A stretch of 64,000 bases of DNA from Woeseiaceae bacterium (GTDB lineage: Bacteria > Pseudomonadota > Gammaproteobacteria > Steroidobacterales > Woeseiaceae), in NCBI GenBank assembly GCA_028277185.1, contig JANQGQ010000044.1:248001-312000 (forward strand), given 5' to 3'. Position 1 is the first letter of the stretch. Each line of letters opens with the position of its first letter. Below are positions 884 through 5,910 of this stretch, piece after piece. The notes beneath the pieces were generated by a model. That model was given only the letters and a program-made list of their open reading frames with translations, was not told where the DNA came from and did not search any database. Made by a program: the position numbers and the translations under genes.

Positions 884-1057
884 ACGTTGTAGCGCCGAGG
901 GACGCGTTTGCGCAAATTCGCCGGGTGTATCGACGCTGCAACTACGACTTTACTTTAGCTTTTCTGAGCAAGTATCTATTCGTTGGTTTCGATGCGCGGC
1001 CGTTCGTCGTGCAAGAAAAAAAATTCTTGCAATCATAGTTGTCGAGTGTACCTTTGA

Positions 1058-1418
1058 TCGTGAGGCGCAAGCCTCGGCCGAAAGGGAAACCTTGAGGCAA
1101 CCGCCCTGCTGAAAGAGGTCCGAGCCTCTCCAAGTGTCGGGGGCGGTGGACGCTGAAAGCGCAACTGGCACGCTGGACGGGGTCGAAAGACACCGTACGA
1201 CGTCAAAGGCGAAACGCAGTGAACCTCGGAACAACGCTGCGAGGAACCGAGCCGGGAGCGTGGGGTAGCCCGATACCAAGAACGCTTTCGGGTCGAAGCA
1301 CGGAGAGCCTGTCGCGAGGCAGACGAACCGGGTCAAGAACGGAAAGCGCGACAAAAGCAGTTCTACCTGGGCGTCCTCTTTAATCAAGCGCAAAGCGGCC
1401 TTTGGCCGCTTTTTTTTT
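1058..1418 (+). ncRNA. Candidate structured non-coding RNA of unknown class
   Basis: This is a gene-free stretch with many local helices, several closed by GNRA loops. GAGGC/GCCTC closes GCAA (1062-1075). CGGGGTC/GACACCG closes GAAA with one mismatch (1178-1195). CGCT/AGCG lies at 1151-1161. AGAGG/CCTCT lies at 1114-1129. CCTCG/CGAGG lies at 1224-1244. AGCGT/ACGCT (1257-1286) encloses GGTA/TACC. A strong intrinsic terminator ends it. GAAA loops appear on the plus strand only, which sets the direction. A weak promoter (TTGCAA 1027-1032, TACCTT 1049-1054) and a small inverted repeat (1011-1030) precede it. I could not match it to RNase P, tmRNA, 6S, SRP or common riboswitches. It could instead be a long leader of the next gene. 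Confidence 0.5.
1392..1418 (+). terminator. Strong rho-independent terminator
   Basis: A nine-base-pair stem, AAAGCGGCC (1392-1400) with GGCCGCTTT (1404-1412), has a TTT loop and runs into a T-tract to 1418. It lies 110 bases before the next start codon, so it ends the upstream transcript or acts as an attenuator for the solute-binding protein gene. Confidence 0.85.
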
Positions 1419-4651: not shown

Positions 4652-5910
4652 CAGGATTCTCCGCCGTTAAAGCGCATGTTCTGGATCTCGAGCATGCGGC
4701 GCCGCTGCGATTCGAGGCGCGTCGGGGGATCCGCATAGACGTCGTCGAACATCGTGGCCGGATCCAGCCAGGGGCCTTCCGTCATCGTTCCGTAGGACTG
4801 CGCTTGTTTCCACGCAGCAAGCACTTCTGCCTTGAGTTCCTCGGTCAGCGCCGTGTGTTTCTTCTCGCTCCAGTGACCCTCCCGGATCAGGTGGTTCTTG
4901 AGGCGCTCGATGGGGTCGCCGAGCGGGAAGTCGTGCCACTCGTCCTTGGGCCGGTACTTCGACGGGTCGTCGCTCGTCGAGTGCGCGCCGCCGCGGTAGG
5001 TCACGTGCTCGATCAGCGTCGGTCCGCCGCCCCGGCGGGCGCGGTCGGCGGCCCAGAGCGTCGCCGAGTAGATGGCGAGCAGGTCGTTGCCGTCGACGCG
5101 AATGCCGGGGATACCGAGACCGAGGCCGCGCGCCGCGAACGGGCGCCGCTCACCGCCCGCCGTGCCCTGAAAAGTGGAAATCGCCCACTGATTGTTGACG
5201 ACGTTCAGAATGACGGGCGCCTGATACACCGCCGCAAAGGTCAGCGCATGGTGGAAATCCGCTTCCGCCGTGCTGCCGTCACCTATCCACGACGCCGCGA
5301 CGTGGTCCTCGCCTTTGATCGCCGAGGCCATGGCCCAGCCGACGGCATGCGGGTACTGCGTGCCGAGATTGCCGGATACCGAGAACACGTTGCCGCTCTT
5401 TGTGTGGTACATGATCGGCAACTGACGGCCCTGGCACATGTCGCGCGTGTTGGACAGACACTGGCACATCATGTCCACCAGCTTGACGCCGCGATACATG
5501 AACAGCCCCTGATTGCGATATGACGGAAAACACATGTCGCCGTGCCGGAGCGCCATTGCCTGACCGATCGACACGGCCTCTTCGCCGAGCGCTTCCATAT
5601 AAAAGGAGATGCGGCCCTGGCGCTGGATCTGCCACATGCGTTCGTCGAACACGCGATTGAGCAGCATCCAGCGCAGCCCCACCTGCAGGTCGGCCGGATC
5701 GAGGTTCGGGTTCCACGGCCCCGTCGCCCCGTCATCGTCGTCGAGCACGCGCACGAGCCCGGCGGCCAGATGTTCCATATCGCGAACTTTGGCGTCGGTC
5801 CCGGGCTTGTCCAGCGCACCGGCTGGGCTCAGCTCGAGATAGCTGAAGTCCGGTTCGTCGCCGGGCCTTGCCGTGGGACGCGGAATGTAGAGGCGTGACT
5901 CTTTGGCCAT
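4651..5910 (-). CDS. bkdA1: Branched-chain 2-oxoacid dehydrogenase E1 alpha subunit
   Basis: 419 residues, the usual length of bacterial BCKDH E1alpha, including the N-terminal extension these have over pyruvate E1alpha. The thiamine-diphosphate motif is GDGSTAEADFHHA...NNQWAIS, with GDG and NN in the correct spacing. The phosphorylation-loop equivalent is RGGAHSTSDDPSKYRPKDE. It decarboxylates the oxoacid and reductively acylates lipoyl-E2. It is the first gene of the E1alpha-E1beta-E2 operon, 87 bases downstream of the leucine dehydrogenase gene on the same strand, so all four may share a transcript. Confidence 0.93.
   Translation of the reverse strand: MAKESRLYIPRPTARPGDEPDFSYLELSPAGALDKPGTDAKVRDMEHLAAGLVRVLDDDDGATGPWNPNLDPADLQVGLRWMLLNRVFDERMWQIQRQGRISFYMEALGEEAVSIGQAMALRHGDMCFPSYRNQGLFMYRGVKLVDMMCQCLSNTRDMCQGRQLPIMYHTKSGNVFSVSGNLGTQYPHAVGWAMASAIKGEDHVAASWIGDGSTAEADFHHALTFAAVYQAPVILNVVNNQWAISTFQGTAGGERRPFAARGLGLGIPGIRVDGNDLLAIYSATLWAADRARRGGGPTLIEHVTYRGGAHSTSDDPSKYRPKDEWHDFPLGDPIERLKNHLIREGHWSEKKHTALTEELKAEVLAAWKQAQSYGTMTEGPWLDPATMFDDVYADPPTRLESQRRRMLEIQNMRFNGGES

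Follow-up and report, generated by a model that had tools for sequence, protein, structure and literature searches.

A conserved stand-alone structured RNA gene in the order Woeseiales

The RNA gene and its signals

In the 64-kb stretch of Woeseiaceae DNA analysed here (the window), a stand-alone noncoding RNA gene of about 350 nt occupies positions 1060-1415 of the plus strand. An amine oxidase gene lies upstream of it, and the genes for a family-3 solute-binding protein and a branched-chain 2-oxoacid dehydrogenase set lie downstream. The gene and its signals are arranged as follows.

907-914, plus strand: U1, TTTGCGCA, conserved, about 153 bp before the 5' end of the RNA
946-958, plus strand: U2, GACTTTACTTTAG (family consensus GAAATTACTTNAA), 39-40 bp downstream of U1
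1027-1054, plus strand: sigma-70-like promoter, with a -35 box TTGCAA (1027-1032), 16 bp and a -10 box TACCTT (1049-1054)
1060-1415, plus strand: noncoding RNA gene, its 5' end placed from the -10 box and its 3' end in the U-run of the terminator
1392-1418, plus strand: intrinsic terminator, AAAGCGGCC-UUU-GGCCGCUUU followed by a U-run

A first-pass annotation of this DNA had proposed a structured RNA of about 360 bases at 1058-1418 that closes with a strong intrinsic terminator. Both proposals were borne out and the coordinates are almost exact, as the promoter-derived 5' end falls at about 1060, the last U of the terminator at about 1418, and the terminator hairpin was called at 1392-1412. 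The plus strand of 1058-1418 has a folding energy of -147.9 kcal/mol, against -134.8±5.3 kcal/mol in dinucleotide shuffles (z -2.5, with 0 of 100 shuffles as good), and the minus strand folds like its own shuffles (z -0.1). The body of the RNA, from the first hairpin to GCGUCCUC, measures 306-319 nt across all complete copies. A short A/U-rich spacer follows on the 3' side of GCGUCCUC, and then the terminator, whose hairpin and U-run recur at the same place in those homologues whose contig extends far enough.

Assignment of the promoter rests on comparison, because a generic promoter scanner run on the window did not call the sigma-70-like site. Most homologues carry TTGACA or TTGCAA, 16-18 bp and a TAAATT-like box just upstream of the RNA (family consensus TTGACA ... 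TAAATT), in a position that is fixed relative to it. Most copies also possess a rigidly spaced upstream module consisting of TTTGCGCA, 40 bp, and then TTACTTNAA. With at most one mismatch, U1 stands at -155 to -158 (in one case at -167) upstream of 30 of the 36 homologues, and U2 begins between -116 and -118 in almost every one of them. Both the spacing between U1 and U2 (about 40 bp) and their distance to the RNA are fixed over divergent genomes, and in the homologues no conservation was found further upstream than U1; from U1 to the terminator, the conserved unit spans about 510 bp. Within the family, the RNA gene is the only place where U1 and U2 both match exactly and the full TTACTTNAA-type context is present; the exact U1-U2 pattern by itself occurs there and at a few places that lack the U2 context, which we take as chance matches. 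A shared regulon marked by U1 and U2 was rejected, since the family has the module at the RNA gene only. We infer that U1 and U2 form a dedicated activator site.

The first-pass annotation had also described the region as free of any coding frame. Small ORFs do cross the RNA gene in the window, and a 197-codon ORF at 950-1543 on the minus strand runs antisense through it; this ORF is not kept in the homologues. What stands is the statement for the family, as no conserved reading frame was found on either strand across the 36 homologues. A stop-free plus frame is absent in 35 of the 36, a minority have open minus frames, in line with their composition, and the spacings between anchors fall into every class modulo 3. 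Coding on either strand was therefore rejected.

None of the 4227 families of Rfam 15 matched the 64-kb window at the gathering threshold. At relaxed thresholds, the locus and 12 homologues gave nothing credible, the best weak matches reaching 10-20 bits, far under the cut-offs. In agreement with the earlier remark that it matched no known class, the RNA family is held by no known family and was undescribed before; its general kind, the stand-alone structured bacterial RNA, is already known. No paper on a comparable Woeseiaceae RNA was found in the open-licence literature.

Distribution among Woeseiales genomes

The Woeseiaceae are a mostly marine-sediment family of bacteria and are widespread in that habitat. 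The RNA is present in 35 of the 107 Woeseiaceae genomes sampled and in two genomes of another Woeseiales family, always in single copy, and no homologue was found in the sampled genomes of other orders. In a blastn comparison with 60 relatives, homologues from the same genus were as much as 95% identical across a 60-nt core. Covariance model R1, which covers the 5' domain, detected the RNA in 34 of the 107 Woeseiaceae genomes and in the two of the second family, and nothing else across 369 genomes drawn over the class. A second model (R2) yielded nothing credible outside the order in 349 genomes drawn over the phylum; one match there, in G1055 (E 0.005 over 349 genomes), lacks the core in its sequence and was judged a chance match. 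Model R3, built independently on the 3' domain, agreed with R1 on 33 genomes and added one in which the RNA is cut off at a contig edge, and the total of 35 is thus made up of R1's 34 and this truncated case. In G121 (L074, G121:C101:1-400), which R3 missed, the contig reverses direction within the RNA and repeats the 5' region in inverted orientation, probably through an assembly error. The patchy presence of the RNA shows that it is dispensable.

The carriers are mainly Woeseiaceae and Gammaproteobacteria of the order Woeseiales. A contig titled Phycisphaerae (L093) carries the RNA as well and is probably misbinned Woeseiaceae DNA, because a neighbouring protein is 79% identical to Woeseiaceae proteins. 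The RNA is also found on a contig titled Deltaproteobacteria (L119). Altogether, 36 full or near-full homologues made up the alignment set.

Secondary structure and long-range pairings

The elements of the predicted fold, with the two putative pseudoknots, lie in the window as listed here.

1062-1075, plus strand: P1, hairpin GAGGC-GCAA-GCCUC; pairs kept 95%, loop GNRA in 21 of 36 sequences
1079-1096, plus strand: P2, hairpin, with a UUCG cap in most homologues and GAAA in the window
1100-1147, plus strand: P3/P3a/P3b, ACCGCC(CU).../...(GG)GGCGGU, the most conserved domain, with the inner hairpin P3b at 1115-1128
1119-1124, plus strand: putative PK1, 5' side UCCGAG in the P3b loop, pairing with 1225-1230
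1134-1141, plus strand: putative PK2, 5' side GUGUCGGG, pairing with 1269-1276
1148-1153, plus strand: P4, 5' strand GGACGC, pairing with 1371-1376
1158-1260, plus strand: middle domain, closed by P5 (1158-1161 with 1257-1260) and holding the GNRA hairpin P6b
1225-1230, plus strand: putative PK1, 3' side CUCGGA, conserved
1264-1367, plus strand: 3' domain, closed by P8 (GGUAG 1264-1268 with CUACC 1363-1367)
1269-1273 with 1288-1292, plus strand: P9, within the 3' domain
1269-1276, plus strand: putative PK2, 3' side CCCGAUAC; the same bases make P9 in the alternative fold
1314-1317, plus strand: GNRA loop of hairpin P10, within the 3' domain
1371-1376, plus strand: P4, 3' strand GCGUCC, closing the whole multi-helix body

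The fold was derived from 13 sequences of the 36-sequence alignment and tested on the 23 others, against a null that keeps the tree and the number of substitutions per column (200 simulations). This held-out, rate-preserving test was used because an all-pairs (R-scape-like) covariation scan has little power with 36 related sequences, in which it gave one pair at E<0.05. The held-out sequences contain 39 compensated pairs against 21±3.1 in the null, a number never reached in the 200 simulations, and 87.8% of their cells are canonical against 79.6±1.1%; the reverse test gave 37 compensated pairs against 15.4±2.8. Sixty-three pairs were predicted identically from both halves of the alignment, and when the helix partners were slid by 1-3 columns, canonical pairing fell to 33-46%. 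The first-pass annotation had suggested a new class of structured RNA and had named homologues without compensatory changes in the stems as the observation that would speak against it. Compensation is present, in sequences outside the derivation of the structure, and the suggestion is supported.

Taken helix by helix, P2, P5, and P9 lie above the null on both measures and P3b and P4 on pairing, and P1, the P3 core, and P8 are too invariant to be informative. P2 is 98.8% canonical with 6 compensated pairs (null 2.5), and P5 is 96.5% canonical with 3 (null 0.5). P4 is 100% canonical in the 36 sequences, and in three of them GGACGC/GCGUCC has become GGAUGC/GCAUCC. Identity in the P3/P3a/P3b domain reaches 95% over about 60 nt. 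A separate count for the 3' domain gave 8 pairs changed on both sides, and 0 of 500 shuffles reached its covariation score. In L081, from position 5001, a 3'-domain hairpin (ACGGGAAGCCAACCGAAAGGAAGGCAGACCG-like) is found in several tandem repeats.

The density of GNRA loops, to which the earlier reading had appealed, proves nothing by itself because composition alone accounts for their raw number (23 against 22.4±3.2 in shuffles), whereas two particular loops are well kept. The loop of P6b (1185-1188, GAAA in the window) is GNRA in 35 of 36 sequences and that of P10 (GCGA in the window) in all 36, and the variation at the N and R positions within them is what selection for the motif would produce. 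It is therefore the comparative evidence, rather than the GNRA word count, that carries the case for a structured RNA. Invariant bases cluster in the loops and junctions of the RNA, as is usual for RNAs that act through their shape.

Searching for additional stems gave two long-range pairings, PK1 and PK2. PK1 is 97.6% canonical, with a nominal compensation P of about 0.03, and both of its sides are changed in L071 (CUGAG/CUCAG) and in L082 (G..C for U..A). PK2 is 99.3% canonical and compensated at two pairs, with a compensation P of about 0.075. The data contain three stems (P2, PK1, and PK2) that reach 6 bp or more and have at least 2 compensated pairs, against 0.18 in simulated alignments. 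These results suggest that both pairings exist as pseudoknots, each with moderate support of its own. PK2 is incompatible with P9 and with two pairs of P3, and therefore, unless the RNA switches between folds, one of the pairings must be wrong.

Possible roles of the RNA

Comparison shows this locus to be a gene for a structured, noncoding RNA that is conserved and independently organised in Woeseiales. From the genome sequences, we infer that the gene is transcribed and that its product acts in trans and functions through its fold. The explanation that we favour, with reasonable though far from full confidence, is a trans-acting RNA that works through its three-dimensional shape, most likely together with a protein partner; its role is probably regulatory or in an RNA-protein particle. 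An activator at U1/U2 would control transcription, and the RNA would fold with long-range contacts (the closing stem P4, PK1, and possibly PK2 alternating with P9). The folded RNA would then bind its partner as the core or a titrating part of a ribonucleoprotein, acting via its shape rather than via a short antisense seed. A shape-based, stand-alone RNA is favoured because the body has a constant length, held-out covariation is far above the null in both directions, two models of opposite ends find the same 33 genomes, the GNRA loops are kept, P2, P5, and P4 covary, invariant bases cluster in loops and junctions, the fixed-spacing module is private to the gene, and no reading frame is kept.

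Nearest in kind, not by homology, are OLE, GOLLD, ROOL, and raiA/ModT, which are large structured bacterial RNAs (PMC12286853, PMC11706538). These RNAs are likewise stand-alone and ornate, with conserved multi-helix folds, and their roles are or long were unknown. However, the Woeseiales RNA has no Rfam match, resides in gammaproteobacterial hosts, shows no linked partner gene, and at about 350 nt is shorter than OLE (about 600 nt). A bolder version of the favoured explanation, which we put forward tentatively and would not expect to hold in full, is that it forms a pseudoknotted particle private to Woeseiales, a lineage-specific counterpart of OLE or raiA/ModT, which switches between the P9 and PK2 long-range folds under its dedicated upstream module.

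The main rival is a trans-acting antisense sRNA of the Hfq/ProQ type that pairs with mRNAs via exposed conserved segments. Strong structural conservation alone leaves base pairing with targets possible, and the RNA's own promoter and U-rich terminator, its single copy, its independence of any one gene, and the conserved bases left unpaired in the model would all suit such an sRNA. However, the segments with the highest conservation belong to helices, junctions, or putative pseudoknots and not to one open seed, and a constant length with a multi-domain fold over divergent species is unusual for seed-type sRNAs; we consider this explanation rather unlikely, though worth keeping in view.

Less probable still is a ribozyme or ligand-sensing RNA in which the mutually exclusive P9 and PK2 act as a conformational switch. 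The segment CCCGAU(AC) has two alternative partners, UCGGG at 1288-1292 (P9) and GUGUCGGG at 1134-1141 (PK2), both pairings show compensations, and the invariant core is dense. On the other hand, no known self-cleavage motif and no downstream gene to switch are found, and P9 is lost in several members that keep PK2, so that PK2 alone might be real.

CsrA/RsmA-sequestering sRNAs such as CsrB and RsmZ resemble this RNA in their gammaproteobacterial hosts, their length of about 350 nt, and their own promoter, distal activator site, and terminator, and several GGA triplets are present. Yet GGA is mostly not above dinucleotide expectation (8 against 9.8±2.4 in the window, with some members up to 15 against 10.4), ANGGA is at that expectation in 13 homologues, and no Csr/Rsm family of Rfam matches. 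The hairpins are capped by GNRA or UUCG rather than GGA loops, and the long-range closing stem and putative pseudoknots are further differences. As the motif count fails in most members, this candidate was rejected, and we give it a small chance.

The genomic context bears on whether the RNA is part of some mobile or defence-type cassette, such as an RNA antitoxin or a small selfish unit. Flanking genes differ by clade, and the downstream gene may face either way. In a near relative, G021 (L125, G021:C23), the same oxidase and solute-binding genes enclose a clean empty site. From the varying neighbours and this empty site, the RNA is judged to be trans-acting and patchily held. Patchy presence, several chromosomal sites, the empty site, and a conserved unit of about 510 bp would fit a cassette. 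However, no protein gene is associated, the RNA is always single-copy, and viral contigs, phages, and plasmids gave no matches, for which reason phage or plasmid origin was rejected. Moreover, the site is kept within subclades, as the window and five other homologues, the latter with divergent RNAs, share the solute-binding-protein neighbour; this fits vertical descent with loss and suggests old residence rather than frequent movement. A cassette is slightly less probable even than a CsrA sponge.

A cis-acting leader or riboswitch of the solute-binding protein gene, which in the window begins about 110 bp beyond the terminator, can be set aside, because a strong terminator intervenes and synteny is not conserved, the downstream genes of other clades being unrelated and often on the opposite strand. 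A divergent RNase P, 6S, tmRNA, or SRP RNA is just as improbable: the size range and ornate fold would fit, and class A RNase P RNA shares conserved junction bases and long-range pairing and 6S RNA the single-copy, stand-alone, structured state, but the genome has its true RNase P RNA on another contig (RF00010, G000:C8, E 1e-105, 320 bits) and a 6S gene of other architecture on contig C35 (RF00013), ARAGORN found no tRNA/tmRNA-like match in the window, and Rfam gave no match.

A trans-acting RNA that works through its shape thus remains our preferred explanation. Large, well-folded classes of bacterial RNA are rare, and several have proved to be unusual particles or regulators. Because its ends are defined, statistics support its structure, and 36 full or near-full homologues are available, the Woeseiales RNA is directly testable.
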